Part shown: piece by piece, positions 1,456 to 25,815 of the stretch | Layout of the letters: the number at the start of each line of letters is the position of its first letter | Position numbering within the stretch: position 1 is the stretch's first letter | IMG/VR virus record: IMGVR_UViG_3300031788_000095 | Span: 1-25,815 of that record | Length of the DNA stretch: 25,815 bases | DNA from: a virus | Reading direction: 5' to 3' (one strand) | The notes under the pieces: model-generated | Told to the model about the DNA's origin: nothing | Databases searched by the model: none | What the model saw: the letters and a program-made list of their open reading frames with translations, nothing else | Made by a program: the position numbers and the translations under genes

Positions 1456-4400
1456 TTATCCAGTTATTAAGGTTACACCGATATCGGTGGTAGGATTAAT
1501 AATTAAAGTCTTAGACATTGGTGGTACAGCTATAAGATCGTTAGTGGTACTATAATTTGGATTAGCAATCGATACTGATATGATACCTGGAATTTCACTA
1601 ACTACTGCTACGATACTGCTAATAGCAATTGCTTGTCCAATTGGATTACTGTTTACCAAGGAGCTGACTTGCGAGCGAATTTGAGTTACGATATTCGAGA
1701 ACGGTACACCTGTAGCTGTTCTGATATCGATTGACACTTGCACTCTTAAAGCTAGAGGAGCTCTTATGAAAATATCGGCACCAGCTGCACTCACGCCTGG
1801 GTAGGTAAAACTGTCTCTAGGATCACCGTATACTATCCTGTTAGCTTCAGCAATTAATCCAGTATTATATCTATAGCTATCTAATCCAATTTGGATAGTA
1901 GTTGGATAGTCTAGTTTTCCTAATGATGTTAGAGCAACACCTGCACTATTGTTAATTTTATCATACTGAGCAAAACCATAAAATGCTATGAGATTCTGAG
2001 TTGTCGAACCTGGTTGTGCTGATATTAACTTAGTCTTCTTATAAGCAGTATAAGGTGTTTGTTCAACTACATATACAGAAGTAGTTGCGTTATTTAAGCT
2101 AGCATTTAAAACTTGAACCATGTTACCTTTTACTATTGCGTGATCTCTATCTAGAACTTGAACAACAGTATAAGTGCCTGCATTGGCTAAGCTTAAAGTA
2201 CTGCCAGTAACCGTAAATATATCGCCTGGTTGAGTTACGTCATATTCAGAGAATAATATCTGAGGCCTATCACATTCCAGTACGCCTGAAGTCACTAAAA
2301 CTGAAGCTTGCGTTACAGCAGCTGGATTTATACAATTCAAATATGTTGCTCGTCCTTCTTGTAATACAAGGATAGAGAAAAATGAAGGCATGTTAAAATT
2401 TGAAGGATCAGTAGTTAAATTATAACCTGTAGTTGTAGTTGTGACGATTAAACCTGAAGAAACAGCAGTTATACCGATTGAAGTATTGATTGCTATAGCA
2501 GTTTTCGTAGCTACTTGAGTAGAATTATCACCATTTAGAATAGCTACTTCGATGCCCGTATAGCCAAATGGAACTGGATCGGTATTAGTTCCATTTACAT
2601 TGAACCATACGTAATACATGTTGACGTTACCGGCATTGTTAATGAAGAAATATTGACCTGCAGTACTTAACGTAAAAGCAGAGCCTGAAGGCATACTGAA
2701 TTGGCTGATTTGTTGCAATTTAGCACCGGAACTAAATACCATGAAGTTACCTTGGTTTGCGGAAGCGAAAGCCGTTCCAAAAGTAACTACATCACCCATG
2801 TTAGCATTACCAAGAAGGGGTTCAGTGCCTGTTCCATTCCAGCTTAATTTTAAAGTATGTTCAGAAGCATCAACATTAAAGGAAGTTGTAGAATCAAAAC
2901 CTAGACTTATAAGATTATCTGGCAAAGTAACGTCTTCATTTACAACATCGACATTTTCGTACCACACACTGTTGTTGAATTCTCGTATCACTCTGAACTG
3001 ACCTTGATTCAATGGAGAAAAAGGAGCAGATATTGTGATATTATCCCCTTCCGATACTCCACTAGTAGCGATAAATTGTCCAGATACAAATGATACACTA
3101 GATTGAACTGCAGCTAAAGGATTTAGAACTTGTGCGGTTAATCCATTATCGGATACGCCGGTAACTAAGAAAGTACCGTTATTACTTGTCGTTGGAAGTC
3201 CTGATACGGTTAATAAATCGCCAATAGATAGCTCAGTGAAATTAGCATTGCCAGTCAAAATGGTGTAAATAGAATCTTGCGAATTGGTAACTAAAGAAAC
3301 TGATACCGTACCACCTCCGCTGTCATTGAAATTCAATGGAGACTGTAAGAAGTCTGGACTAGTTCCGATTCCGTTCCAGCTTAAACAAGCTAGACTACCT
3401 TGATTTTCGATCTTAAAAGTTAATCCACGTACTCTCACATTGGCTCTTGGTTTTCCAAAATACCGTTGAGTCGGCAGTCTATTGAGTAGAGTTACTGTAG
3501 TTTCATTTGCAATTGGAGTATTTGGATAAAGACTGATACTGGTATTAGATCCAAAAAGCGTCTTCTTTGTTTGAGCAATTGTTGCAGCTAAACGGAACCA
3601 CTGGTCGCTTAATATTCCAGCTGAAGCGGGAATGCTTGCTGAAATTTGACAATACTGATTATTAAGATTCGCAGCCGAACCTAGGACTGGTGTTTGATAT
3701 CCATTAGCTAAACCGCCGAATATTTGTATAGAACCGGCGCTTCCAATCGTATCTGTTGATAAAGCTAACTTAGTGCCGCGATCTGCGGATTCTATTAGAC
3801 CGCCTGAGGTAAAACCGGTTACTGCTAATACATTGGTAAATCGCGATACTTGATCAATAGTAGTAGGGATTAATTGGAGAACTTCGCCATTATTGAAGGC
3901 GTAGCCTATATCAGTCGGTAAGGACAAGGGACGTTTCAATACGAACTGCGGACTACCGGAGATATTGCTACTGTAAATCCAATTAAGACCATCTTGTAAT
4001 GATATGGAACTGTAAGTAAATCCACTGTCTTGATAAGTACTTAAAACTATTACTCCTGAGCCAGAAAGATCGCCATCTAACGCTAAAGTAGCAGTTATGT
4101 AGGAAGCTAGATTAGCGTTTACGTACGTAACTATTTGAGCCGCAGTCGTAGGACTTGCTTCATAGAATTGAATACCATTAGGTACTAGAGTCTGTTTATT
4201 TGATTCTACAACTTCAGAGTTAGTTGCCCGTTGTATAGTAAATGAAGTAGAAGTAGGAGCAAATCCTGCCTGCGTAGATACTCTAAACACGCCTTGGTTA
4301 GCTGAACTAAATCCTGTTTGTGTGGAAATATTAACATATTCGCCACCAGATAGCGTTAAATTCGGCGCCGATCCTACAGTGTTCCAAGTGTAAGTGACCT

Positions 4401-7400
4401 GATCAATACCGGCGCTTGGAGTATTAGGTGTAGACGTTACATTCCATTGTGTAGTGCCGTCAATGGAAGTCGTATCTGCAACACCGCTTTGCAGGGAAAT
4501 TTGAATATTAACATTTGAAGTCGAAGTAACCGAACTAGTGATAGGACTATTGGCTAGAGCTGGATATATATAACTTACAGAAACAGATTCGCCACTTCGA
4601 CCCCATGGAACAGATCGATATAATATAGCAGTCTTGGTAGGACTAGGCTTCAATACTTTCTTAGCTTGCATTAAAACTTTGAAGTTGGAGAAATCAAAGG
4701 AGGTTCCGAACGAAGCAGTAAAGCTAGAAGTAGCTCCAGCGGCTGTATCGTAAGCATTGAAATTATTAGGATTCGAAGAATCGGTTGTATTAGTAGTTGC
4801 AGTTCTGTAAAGAGGAATCGTATATGTTTCTGAAATCAGATTGCTGTCTAGGGTAGCAACTAAAGTATCGTTATAACCAAAATCTAGAGGATTAGCTAAG
4901 AAGAATCTATCAACCGTCCTGAATCTCCTCATGTCTGGATTATCGCTAGTAATCGCTAGGTAATTGTTAATATCTACTGTAGTTCCGCCAGTTATTGAAC
5001 TTATTTGAGTATATTCAGCATAAGGTTGTGCGTCATAAGCCGAACCGTACGGTTGCAGTATGGAAACCAAATAGTTCGGGTCAAATGAAGCTAATGATAA
5101 GGAGGAATCAAAGGACTGTATGAAACTATCTATCGGATTTGCATAAACACCAGAAGCAAATGTTGTGTGGAAGAATAAAGGTAAACTAGCTTCAGTTAAA
5201 CCGTTATCGTAGGAAGCTATTAATGAGGTTGTACTGATTCCCGTAGAACCAGTAGGGAGGTTAAGCAGCTGACCTTGTGCATCGGCAGTGATCACTGTAA
5301 TACTGCCAGTGAGATCTGCGGTATTAGTTGTTATAACTATATATTGTTCTAATTGTACAGAGAATGTTATTTCTTCTGTTTGCAATTGTAAAGCTTGCGC
5401 AATCTGATCTAAAGATTGACTTCCGGATACTATCTTAAATTTCTGAGGTGTTCTACTATTCCTGGAAACTACAAATCCTTGAGTAAAAGTAACTGCTTGC
5501 GGAACTACTAGAGCGTATTCAGCTGCAGTGACTAAAAGTTGAACATAATCAAAGGAAGGATCGACATAATGTACTCGACCTTCTAATTGATTAAATGCAT
5601 TTAACTGTGGTGACCAGATAATTAGATAATCTCCGGCCAAAACATTGGTAAACGCACCTGATACTGAAGAAGTATATTGAACTATATTAGTCGATGGAGT
5701 AGAAACCGTAAGAGTAGTATTAGCGGCAACTCCTGTGTGAATAATTACTGTTGGATCATCGATTAATACCCAAAAATGGCCACTAGCAGTTGGAGCTATA
5801 CTACCACTGGAAATCAAACCGCTGATCACCGAACCTTCTGTAGAAGCAGTACCGGCGCTTAGAAGATCTCCTGGACTTAAAGCTACATTTAATGAGAACT
5901 GTGCAGTATTTCTATCTAATGTATAATCTGAAGTAGTTCCAGTCGAAGATAAGCCTAGAGCAACTGAGAACATCCCTTTTGTTACTAAAGTTGAGGATGA
6001 ACTAATCACTACTTGAGCTCTAGTGCTGATACCTAGATTGCTGGTTAATTGTATTTGAGTTCCTACGACCTCGGCGGTTACACCGGTCAATTTATAATTG
6101 AATACAGCGGCCCAAGCAGCTAATGAATTAGAAGCCGCGACTGTTACATAGGAACCAGTATTTATGAAATCTATATTCATAAATGTATAAGTAATTGGAG
6201 CGGTTCCATCTACCGATAAAGTTAAAGTATCGCCTTGAGCAATAGTATTGGACCAAAGGCTCTGAGCCTGGGTACTTACAGTAGCAGTAGTTCCATCTTT
6301 ACTTAATGGTAGATTATTTTTGTATAATCTTAAGGTTTCAATTTCACTAGAAGAAAGACCTAATAGAACAGAAGCATTACGTCCGGATGTAGTTGGTAGT
6401 TCTATTTGTAAAGAATCTTCAGTTTGAGCAATAGCTCTGAACACTACGTAAGTACCACTACCAGCCGTTAAAGCTTCAAAGCCTAATGCTGCATCAGCGT
6501 TAACACTAGCTGTAATTTCGTAAGCCGTAGCTGCACCTGGGGCAAGGAAATCGCTATTAGCAAATACATGCTGATAGGTAATTTCGCCAACAGTAATAGC
6601 TAAAGTATCTCCGCCGATTATATCAAATGGAGAAGCTAATGTAGATTGAAGAAAAGCTTTAGCTACCGGAGCCTGTGTTCCTCCAGTGCCTAATTGGAAG
6701 AATCTTTCACCGCCTAATGCACTGTTAACGATCGGTTCGATTGCGACGCCAGCGGATTTTTCTTCATATCCGGTGCCATTGTCGATTACTAAAGTAGCAT
6801 TATTGGTAGTTGTAATGATATTACTACTGGTGATAGTTGCTTGCTCATCTGGCGCTGTAGCACCGATCACAGCGGCTTCAATCGCCGTAGCGGTTCCTAG
6901 CCCTGTGGATGCTAGCTTAGCTTTAATGGTAGTTCTTAACTGATCGTCAGTCTCAGTATCCGCTCCGCTAGTGATAGAGGATGGGTTAAATACAGTAGCT
7001 CCGGAAAACGGTACTGAGGCAAATTGATTGATCGCGCCAATTGGAGCATTTCCAGTAGAACCTGGTAAAACGGCTACGATAGGTACGTTATCGACTTCAG
7101 TTTCGCCGTCTAATATGTAAGCAATTGAAGTTGTAGTATATTGGATATCTGCGTTTGCGCCAACAGATGGAGCTATTATGGTAGTTCCAGAACCGATGGT
7201 TCTGAGATTACCCTGGGACAGAATGACGGATTCGCCTAAGTTATGGTACTTAGACGTGGGAGTGGAAAGAGTCATTACATAGTAACCACCCGTAGGTACT
7301 ACAGAAGTATAAGGCAATGGGCCTTCTATATCAGGGGTACCGCGACCAATGTAGACTGATCCGGTGGCTGGAAAAGAAGCGCCGTTACTGATATTGAGTG

Positions 7401-7761
7401 TTACAGTTCCGATATTCGGAGGAGTAGTACCGGCATAAATTAGAGTGAAGATCTTTGTAAAACTAGTGTCGATAATACTTACTAAACCGGTCGCCGGAGT
7501 AGCTACTATAGGAGTAACACCGTTTTCGGCAGCTAGACGTTGTAGCGCGCTACCGGTAGCACGGTCAATGCTGAAATCATTAAGGATTTGGAATATATCA
7601 CCGGACGAGCGAGCCGCAGTAAGAGCTACTGTTTCAAAAAATGACGTAACGGCACTTCCGATGTTAAAATCGTTAATTCCAGTCTTAGCCGCATAAGTGG
7701 AAAGGAGATCGCCTAAGATCGAATCGTAAGATTGTGGGTTTGGAAGATCGGATGAAGCCAT
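1456..7761 (-). CDS. Giant baseplate J-like wedge protein (2101 aa) with large beta-rich insertion
   Basis: The ends resemble the gpJ/gp6-like baseplate wedge family. Residues 60-300 include the LQRLAAENGV helix, IGRGTPDIEGPLPY at 138-151, and the family hallmark SGADTETDDQLRTTIKAKL at 265-283. Residues about 1925-2101 contain the C-terminal pattern (IRAPLALRVQVSIDI, then PIGQAIAISSIV and IPGIISV). Between them lies an insertion of about 1600 residues, rich in Thr, Ser, Asn and Gly and nearly free of Cys. It holds at least five units of the form GDxxxI, NxG, F/YxV (near 1141, 1514, 1572, 1656 and 1846), some preceded by LSWNGxGTxP (1460, 1639). The usual family length is about 300-600 residues, so this is a greatly expanded version. 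A late-type promoter and GGAG ribosome site precede the ATG. The insertion probably forms a decorated outer surface of the baseplate. Confidence 0.85.
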   Translation of the reverse strand: MASSDLPNPQSYDSILGDLLSTYAAKTGINDFNIGSAVTSFFETVALTAARSSGDIFQILNDFSIDRATGSALQRLAAENGVTPIVATPATGLVSIIDTSFTKIFTLIYAGTTPPNIGTVTLNISNGASFPATGSVYIGRGTPDIEGPLPYTSVVPTGGYYVMTLSTPTSKYHNLGESVILSQGNLRTIGSGTTIIAPSVGANADIQYTTTSIAYILDGETEVDNVPIVAVLPGSTGNAPIGAINQFASVPFSGATVFNPSSITSGADTETDDQLRTTIKAKLASTGLGTATAIEAAVIGATAPDEQATITSSNIITTTNNATLVIDNGTGYEEKSAGVAIEPIVNSALGGERFFQLGTGGTQAPVAKAFLQSTLASPFDIIGGDTLAITVGEITYQHVFANSDFLAPGAATAYEITASVNADAALGFEALTAGSGTYVVFRAIAQTEDSLQIELPTTSGRNASVLLGLSSSEIETLRLYKNNLPLSKDGTTATVSTQAQSLWSNTIAQGDTLTLSVDGTAPITYTFMNIDFINTGSYVTVAASNSLAAWAAVFNYKLTGVTAEVVGTQIQLTSNLGISTRAQVVISSSSTLVTKGMFSVALGLSSTGTTSDYTLDRNTAQFSLNVALSPGDLLSAGTASTEGSVISGLISSGSIAPTASGHFWVLIDDPTVIIHTGVAANTTLTVSTPSTNIVQYTSSVSGAFTNVLAGDYLIIWSPQLNAFNQLEGRVHYVDPSFDYVQLLVTAAEYALVVPQAVTFTQGFVVSRNSRTPQKFKIVSGSQSLDQIAQALQLQTEEITFSVQLEQYIVITTNTADLTGSITVITADAQGQLLNLPTGSTGISTTSLIASYDNGLTEASLPLFFHTTFASGVYANPIDSFIQSFDSSLSLASFDPNYLVSILQPYGSAYDAQPYAEYTQISSITGGTTVDINNYLAITSDNPDMRRFRTVDRFFLANPLDFGYNDTLVATLDSNLISETYTIPLYRTATTNTTDSSNPNNFNAYDTAAGATSSFTASFGTSFDFSNFKVLMQAKKVLKPSPTKTAILYRSVPWGRSGESVSVSYIYPALANSPITSSVTSTSNVNIQISLQSGVADTTSIDGTTQWNVTSTPNTPSAGIDQVTYTWNTVGSAPNLTLSGGEYVNISTQTGFSSANQGVFRVSTQAGFAPTSTSFTIQRATNSEVVESNKQTLVPNGIQFYEASPTTAAQIVTYVNANLASYITATLALDGDLSGSGVIVLSTYQDSGFTYSSISLQDGLNWIYSSNISGSPQFVLKRPLSLPTDIGYAFNNGEVLQLIPTTIDQVSRFTNVLAVTGFTSGGLIESADRGTKLALSTDTIGSAGSIQIFGGLANGYQTPVLGSAANLNNQYCQISASIPASAGILSDQWFRLAATIAQTKKTLFGSNTSISLYPNTPIANETTVTLLNRLPTQRYFGKPRANVRVRGLTFKIENQGSLACLSWNGIGTSPDFLQSPLNFNDSGGGTVSVSLVTNSQDSIYTILTGNANFTELSIGDLLTVSGLPTTSNNGTFLVTGVSDNGLTAQVLNPLAAVQSSVSFVSGQFIATSGVSEGDNITISAPFSPLNQGQFRVIREFNNSVWYENVDVVNEDVTLPDNLISLGFDSTTSFNVDASEHTLKLSWNGTGTEPLLGNANMGDVVTFGTAFASANQGNFMVFSSGAKLQQISQFSMPSGSAFTLSTAGQYFFINNAGNVNMYYVWFNVNGTNTDPVPFGYTGIEVAILNGDNSTQVATKTAIAINTSIGITAVSSGLIVTTTTTGYNLTTDPSNFNMPSFFSILVLQEGRATYLNCINPAAVTQASVLVTSGVLECDRPQILFSEYDVTQPGDIFTVTGSTLSLANAGTYTVVQVLDRDHAIVKGNMVQVLNASLNNATTSVYVVEQTPYTAYKKTKLISAQPGSTTQNLIAFYGFAQYDKINNSAGVALTSLGKLDYPTTIQIGLDSYRYNTGLIAEANRIVYGDPRDSFTYPGVSAAGADIFIRAPLALRVQVSIDIRTATGVPFSNIVTQIRSQVSSLVNSNPIGQAIAISSIVAVVSEIPGIISVSIANPNYSTTNDLIAVPPMSKTLIINPTTDIGVTLITG

Positions 7762-25097: not shown

Positions 25098-25126
25098 AGT
25101 ATACCATGCCTGAGATTGATTGTCAA
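25098..25126 (-). promoter_or_regulatory. Sigma70-type promoter of the ligase operon
   Basis: Minus-strand TTGACA (25126-25121), 17 bases, TATACT (25103-25098) with TGG directly before the -10: an exact -35, a 5 of 6 -10 and an extended -10. Transcription would start near 25091, two bases before the ATG at 25089. Confidence 0.7.
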
Positions 25127-25178
25127 ATTCACTAAGAAGTGACACAGGCCGATAGGAAGGACGATTTCCAGGATTTAG

Positions 25179-25245
25179 TATGGGAAAAATTTTATAGCCT
25201 ATATAGGGGTCGAAATTCTGGTAAAAGTATATGGGAAAATTTTAT
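25179..25245. repeat. Direct repeat TATGGGAAAA(A)TTTTAT, two copies
   Basis: The copies at 25179-25195 and 25230-25245 differ by one extra A and are about 50 bases apart. They lie in the gene-free stretch (25108-25307) between the leftward ligase-operon promoter and the rightward RNA promoter. The AAAATTTT core suggests a bent or protein-bound site. Otherwise this stretch holds the CTATATAG palindrome near 25199 and no credible gene. Confidence 0.4.
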
Positions 25246-25276
25246 GATAATATGATTTTGGAAATTATGAATGTGT

Positions 25277-25306
25277 TTGTATGTCGGGGTATGATATGGT
25301 ATACAT
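25277..25306 (+). promoter_or_regulatory. Promoter for the candidate structured RNA
   Basis: TTGTAT (25277-25282), 17 bases, TATACA (25300-25305) with TGG before the -10. Overlapping it, TATGATATGGTA (25290-25301) differs by one base from the late-type motif TATGATATAGTA found before tail genes. Either reading starts transcription near 25308-25313, at the beginning of the hairpin-rich region. Confidence 0.45.
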
Positions 25307-25327
25307 TTTGTCCCCTTAATACCCCGA
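25284..25327. repeat. 9-bp perfect inverted repeat around the plus-strand promoter
   Basis: TCGGGGTAT at 25284-25292 and ATACCCCGA at 25319-25327 are exact inverted copies 26 bases apart, with the candidate -10 between them. The GGGG could also pair with the CCCC at 25312-25315. It may be an operator. Confidence 0.5.
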
Positions 25328-25815
25328 TAGACGGGATTTATTAGGACCTTCAGTGACTTACACCGAGTGTCCCACACGACCAGGACACACCGTCAAAACA
25401 GTATACATGACACGCGTATCTAAAGTAGACACTCAGTCATGGTTCAGTCAATCATATCAACTACCTACCATGACCGGCTTCGTCCCAAGCCACTATAACC
25501 ACGTGACACACTGAGTCACTAAGGACCATGTCAAGCACGAAGTGCTAACCCTACACATGAGGCCTAGGCCTTCGGCTTAGTCGATATGTCCGGTCTTGTC
25601 CCATGGGTCTCTATATACTGAGTCTACTATTAAGTATCAGTCATGTCGTGTTGGTCAAGTCTCTATAGGGCTGTTAAGGTATAGGGCTGTTAAGGTATAG
25701 TGCTCTATATAGTTAACGTCGCTATGAGGCATAAGGGTTAGGTATCGCCGTTATGGAGTTGGGACGAACTCAGTCATTGTGCCATATGGGGTTAGGACAC
25801 GAAGTGTCGTCGTAG
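25308..25815 (+). ncRNA. Candidate large structured noncoding RNA (continues past window edge)
   Basis: No open frame with a ribosome site is present over 500 bases. Perfect short stems occur one after another: 25367-25372/25383-25388, 25436-25443/25467-25474 (8 bp), 25476-25480/25487-25491, 25503-25507/25515-25519, 25527-25531/25555-25559 enclosing 25534-25538/25542-25546, 25564-25570/25574-25580, 25617-25621/25637-25641 enclosing 25625-25628/25633-25636, 25696-25700/25705-25709, 25730-25734/25751-25755, 25756-25760/25767-25771 and 25796-25800/25804-25808. The loops at 25481-25486 (CGTCCC) and 25761-25766 (GGGACG) are exact complements. The stem at 25564-25580 includes a pair that is G-U on the plus strand but C-A on the minus strand, and a promoter-like site lies at 25277-25306; both favour plus-strand transcription. 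In size and style it recalls large ornate phage RNAs such as GOLLD and ROOL, but identity is not shown. Confidence 0.45.
25664..25701 (+). repeat. 16-bp tandem repeat, two full copies plus a partial third
   Basis: TATAGGGCTGTTAAGG at 25664-25679 and again, without change, at 25680-25695, then TATAGT. CTATA at 25663-25667 can pair with TATAG at 25680-25684, and TATAG at 25696-25700 with CTATA at 25705-25709, so the repeats can form alternative hairpins inside the candidate RNA. Confidence 0.8.

Follow-up and report, generated by a model that had tools for sequence, protein, structure and literature searches.

The stretch of DNA analyzed here in full, hereafter the window (G000), is an entire IMG/VR virus record, a linear fragment of 25815 nt. 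Its genes lie mostly on the minus strand and include those for a baseplate-J-like protein, a baseplate protein, a tape-measure-like protein, a peptide deformylase, a trypsin-like protease, and an ATP-dependent DNA ligase. The right end of the contig is non-coding, and the features that we describe below all fall within it (Table 1). Neither a tRNA nor an Rfam match was found in this end stretch, and an exact-match search at the contig end, made to extend the contig, returned no match.

Table 1. Features of the non-coding right end, in window coordinates
Feature	Position	Strand	Details
Non-coding stretch, contig right end	25108..25815 (last 708 nt)	.	no ORF ≥80 aa kept; contig stops inside the stretch
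A-tract site series (GGGAAAAATTTT-like)	25179..25270; sites 25179, 25230, 25255	.	direct repeat
Conserved leader: A-tract, TGTATGTCGG, ACCCCGATAnACGG, TTTAT, nnCAnTGACTTA	25255..25364	+	blastn to G007; nhmmer profile
Inverted repeat, 5' arm, 22 nt, holds loop 1	25467..25488	+	18/22 identity; 0/100 shuffles
Hairpin 1, GGCUU-CGUCCC-AAGCC	25476..25491	+	-4.4 kcal/mol alone
Mini-hairpin AGCAC-GAA-GTGCT, then AACCC	25534..25546	+	read from sequence; inverted repeat with 25789-25798
Hairpin CTAGGCC-TTC-GGCTTAG	25564..25580	+	read from sequence; one G-U pair on the + strand
Hairpin GTGCT c TATA..TATG a GGCAT	25700..25731	+	+455 from leader; scan; not recognised by model R1
Hairpin 2, GAGUU-GGGACG-AACUC	25756..25771	+	inverted copy of hairpin 1, two compensated stem pairs; -3.7 kcal/mol alone
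Inverted repeat, 3' arm, 22 nt, holds loop 2	25759..25780	+	partner of 25467-25488
Mini-hairpin GACAC-GAA-GTGTC, just 5' of contig end	25796..25808	+	read from sequence

Because the neighboring 93-aa protein had no detectable relatives, the search for related phages was run through the baseplate protein, which has 58 relatives in IMG/VR and a remote one in the Myxococcus phage Mx1 (31% identity). From ~35 relative contigs we took up to ~40 kb upstream of the baseplate gene. The relatives form a group of large, baseplate-bearing tailed phages that reach about 165-175 kb. Compared with GenBank phages by blastn, the region itself gave no match; in Mx1 nothing annotated ahead of the baseplate gene corresponds to it, and that stretch is not matched by the leader profile described below. 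A 16-mer, GGCTTCGTCCCAAGCC, gave matches in 25 IMG/VR contigs that have only the 16-18-mer itself in common with the window. Many of these read as a coding motif, W-A-W-D-E-A, none comes with a comparable region, and we took them as chance.

The first conserved part of the region is the leader. It is built of A-tract sites, common to the relatives as TTTTGGAAAAATTTT, followed by ~100 nt with a ACCCCGATAnACGG core; 10- to 12-mers such as GAAAAATTTT recur in up to 7/18 regions. The window and G007 share a 33-nt blastn match here (E 1.6e-5), and this match, together with the look of two other relatives, seeded a profile that was grown in two rounds. Profile searches placed the leader module in ~20 related phage contigs. 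When each genome in turn was left out, nhmmer recovered the leader in 16/17 genomes with E values of 1e-17 to 2e-3, the exception being G003 (E 0.11). A profile built without the window found the window's own leader at E 0.0019, as its only match in the window, and a reversed database yielded no leader matches of comparable strength. Relative to the baseplate gene, the leader has the identical orientation in all genomes, the window included. In several relatives it has leftward genes on one side and small rightward genes on the other, while in G003 its neighbors read leftward on both sides. Applied to the leader alignment, RNAalifold returned no consensus structure.

The second module is GACGCACGAATGCC followed by a hairpin with three outer pairs, a constant C.A mismatch, three to five inner pairs, and a loop. 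The mismatch falls exactly 14 nt past the first G, and the loop is variable in length, mostly 6-18 nt. The hairpin is introduced by GACGCACGAAT and is placed ~425-600 nt past the leader in most genomes; in G010 the distance from leader to hairpin is ~1.25 kb, with an open frame between. To score covariation, the hairpins of 14 genomes were aligned without gaps, with the loops trimmed to six bases. The paired fraction was 96.4% of cells, a figure inflated by selection in that several of the first 12 hairpins had been picked by a search for C.A hairpins, and for each of the six pairs two or more genomes show changes on both sides. The covariation score was 0.980, as against 0.219 in shuffles (0/500) and at most 0.173 for slid partners.

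A model of the first 12 hairpins (R1), applied to 50 whole records, added two more genomes, G046 and G032 (E 0.0026 and 0.0033). These two, found by the hairpin model alone, were later shown to carry the leader as well (E 5.9e-12 and 7.6e-7, respectively). Each genome has one strong match to the hairpin module (for example L044 1291-1330 and L158 5362-5399, plus 12 further genomes), and leader and C.A hairpin keep one orientation to the structural genes throughout. A 15-mer, GACGCACGAATGCMC, occurs exactly in 50 IMG/VR contigs, among which the leader is present only in the two genomes already known. As far as we have searched, the combination of the C.A module with the leader is thus specific to this phage group. 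The motif of GACGCACGAAT plus C.A hairpin was found neither in Rfam nor by literature search, and the leader/hairpin regions of nine relatives matched no Rfam family. Our larger result is a non-coding region that is conserved in a phage group, consists of two modules, and carries no annotation; the window contig contains its first part.

Model R1 found no C.A module in the window, which ends at +566, inside the range of 425-600 expected for it. The hairpin at 25700-25731 has the place and the C.A mismatch of the conserved module but is without the GACGCACGAAT prefix, and we do not claim it as a member. The conserved module may begin with the mini-hairpin at 25796-25808, in which case the end of the contig truncates it. 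This mini-hairpin resembles the other one in Table 1 (25534-25546): both have C-GAA-G loops and adjoin TAACCC-like bases, the two lie in opposite orientation, and here too the stem differences are compensated. The non-coding region also contains, at 25664-25695, a perfect tandem duplication of TATAGGGCTGTTAAGG in two copies of 16 nt.

A preliminary description of this DNA had drawn attention to the two hairpins numbered in Table 1, whose loops could meet in a kissing interaction. Reading the sequence confirmed both hairpins, and their six loop bases, CGTCCC and GGGACG, are exact reverse complements. The neighboring stems on which coaxial stacking had been proposed do fold, with energies of -9.3 kcal/mol (25436-25474) and -7.2 kcal/mol (25730-25755). 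The complementarity is wider than that description had noticed. It extends over ten bases, TTCGTCCCAA and TTGGGACGAA, within a 22-nt inverted repeat of 18/22 identity, and hairpin 2 therefore reads as an inverted copy of hairpin 1. Between the copies the stems differ at two pairs (GGC/GCC versus GAG/CTC), and both sides have changed in such a way that pairing is kept in both hairpins.

A pair of 5-bp hairpins with complementary 6-nt loops arose in 0/300 dinucleotide shuffles of the region, and an inverted repeat as good as the 22-nt one in 0/100 shuffles, figures that overstate the significance as the hairpin-pair pattern was chosen after it had been seen. A comparable hairpin pair was present in 0/72 overlapping 700-nt tiles of the window; these tiles end before the window does, and none contains the whole pair. 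The observation is correct, and it is hard to put down to chance. Counted from the start of the leader, the hairpins sit at about +227 and +507, past the leader and ahead of the position where the second module is expected. Their surroundings are the fast-changing middle of the non-coding region, where the sequence is not alignable between relatives.

Can the two segments pair, and if so, how? In a partition-function calculation on the plus strand (25240-25815), positions 25479-25488 paired with 25759-25768 with a probability of up to 0.92. The pairing predicted there is an ordinary long-range helix, with a probability of 0.03 for hairpin 1 and 0.00 for hairpin 2, as computed by a program unable to represent loop-loop helices. 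Forcing both hairpins with their loops open costs 2.3-4.6 kcal/mol. The 6-bp CGUCCC/GGGACG helix by itself is worth about -9.5 kcal/mol, and a kissing fold is therefore energetically possible. By these models a plain long-range helix and a kissing fold would both be allowed, and energy alone does not choose between them.

The proposal of a kissing contact thus stands in so far as the segments can pair with each other, but not as a conserved contact. A 5-bp hairpin pair with six complementary loop bases was present in 0/17 homologous regions, and by this comparison of sequences a kissing interaction is not conserved in the region, while one private to this phage is conceivable. The pairing of the two segments appears to be specific to the window's phage and to lie outside the conserved working part of the region, which is the leader with the C.A hairpin; taken alone, the kissing pair is an oddity of a single contig. 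In some relatives, most of all in G050, there are hints of a long-range helix whose arms would lie roughly where the inverted repeat lies in the window. Tested without the window, this helix gave a combined Fisher p of 0.011, as compared to 0.03-0.16 for control zones in the same repeat-rich DNA. A conserved helix enclosing the hairpin module, for which the geometry in the window and G050 is suggestive, is thus not clearly above controls and is only weakly indicated.

We tentatively favor the explanation that the region acts as a folded single strand. This strand would most likely be a rightward transcript, either a non-coding RNA or a long 5' leader that precedes the small rightward genes. 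The complementary segments of the window would pair within it, through a plain long-range helix or a loop-loop contact. The two hairpins are copies of one small hairpin, inverted relative to each other, and the part of the conserved region in which they lie is its rapidly evolving middle. The loop of the C.A hairpin varies in length while the mismatch keeps its position, which speaks for a folded strand and against a dimer site on double-stranded DNA. There is a slight lean to the plus strand, on which hairpins with one G-U pair number 119 (92.7 expected) and those with one A-C pair 95 (83.7 expected). Folding z-scores, by contrast, are modest and show no difference between the strands (mean -1.4 and -1.2), which speaks for DNA. 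As to whether the region is a structured RNA (a transcript or 5' leader) or a DNA origin, we lean with modest confidence to RNA.

It is also quite conceivable that the pair of hairpins is a neutral by-product, functionless in itself whatever the role of the surrounding region, in phages whose non-coding DNA gathers inverted repeats, for instance by template switching. Hairpins made wholly of Watson-Crick pairs are enriched 1.69-fold in the region, and they are enriched 1.61-fold in the other ORF-free gaps of these phages as compared to 0.95-fold in coding DNA. Since those gaps are equally rich, hairpin richness is no argument in itself, and the lack of conservation of the pair fits the neutral explanation as well. 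The two compensated differences between the stems speak against it, as they suggest that the divergence of the copies left their ability to form hairpins intact.

A rival to be taken seriously, though in our judgment somewhat less likely, is that the region is a DNA element that serves as a replication origin or in packaging. In that case a phage protein would bind the A-tract sites, which would bend or open the DNA, the C.A hairpin would serve on an exposed single strand as a primer or nicking signal, and the inverted hairpins of the window would be extra single-strand hairpins or protein sites. The repetition of the A-tracts is consistent with this, as is the single strong match to the hairpin module in each genome. 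The covarying stems contain one G-U pair in 84 cells, a lower share than RNA stems usually show; read from the opposite strand, the constant C.A would become a U.G pair. Sigma-70 promoters and terminators showed no excess in the four regions searched, and the inverted repeats have no strong strand preference. On the other hand, G002 shows no clear turn in GC skew near its region at 160.7 kb beyond the effect of gene direction, although skew tells little about an origin in this genome, and a compact origin would not predict the long gap with its open frame that separates leader and hairpin in G010.

It is improbable that the two loops make a functional kissing contact, whether inside a single RNA or from one copy to another: six GC-rich complementary loop bases, two compensated pairs that keep the stems of both copies, and a permissive energy balance speak for it, but the pair was missing from the homologous regions, the same bases are able to form an ordinary nested helix, and there is no relation to known multimeric RNAs.

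We give little credence to a bolder version of the folded transcript that we favor, in which the region would encode a long phage RNA of a class not described before, marked by the A-tract leader and the covarying C.A hairpin, and the two inverted hairpin copies of the window would dock loop to loop in place of the long-range helix of other members. Whichever explanation applies, the two-module element has strong covariation, occurs in many uncultured phages, and is absent from Rfam. It is a defined target on which to decide between a structured RNA and a hairpin-based origin.

Among known systems, ROOL, GOLLD, and OLE are ornate multimeric RNAs that have kissing loops among their contacts, some of them with covariation support (PMC12286853). 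The region resembles them as a long non-coding sequence, and some of them are phage-encoded; it differs in that the loop pair of the window is not conserved. We found no signs of multimers, and at the gathering score the window and the regions of the nine relatives had no match to ROOL, GOLLD, OLE, or any other Rfam family, the only matches being at chance level (E ~2).

The pRNA of phi29-type phages is also phage-encoded, and complementary loops join its subunits; it is a compact molecule of ~120-174 nt that carries both loops. Complementary loops in phage sequence are the common point with the window. However, the window has no Rfam match to the pRNA covariance model, and the phages studied here are large, baseplate-bearing, and tailed. 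A more general class is that of phage intergenic control regions and replication origins, which contain A-tracts and hairpins. Like these, the present region is non-coding, has A-tract repeats and hairpins, and in several relatives lies at a change of gene direction, but no named family of the class matched it.

Some further observations concern the phages themselves. A second contig, L027 / L051 (IMGVR_UViG_3300029955_000192), has a protein identity of 99.8-100% with the window over the left half of the latter and continues the phage leftward past window position 1. In the 2101-aa baseplate protein (window 1456-7761), a stretch at about residues 1680-1760 has counterparts in further genes of these phages at 34-53% identity (window with G002 and G003) and resembles a shared exposed domain. 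A long array of near-identical repeats (GGCTCGGCTCRGGTATAC) at L118 2500-2901 (G026) lies in an open frame and belongs to a gene for a repetitive protein. The baseplate-protein relatives L194, L195, and L196 were found in bacterial MAG contigs labeled Saprospiraceae, Bdellovibrionales, and Deltaproteobacteria. These are probably phage contigs that were binned with their hosts, and together with Mx1 the labels may hint that the hosts of this group are predatory or social bacteria.
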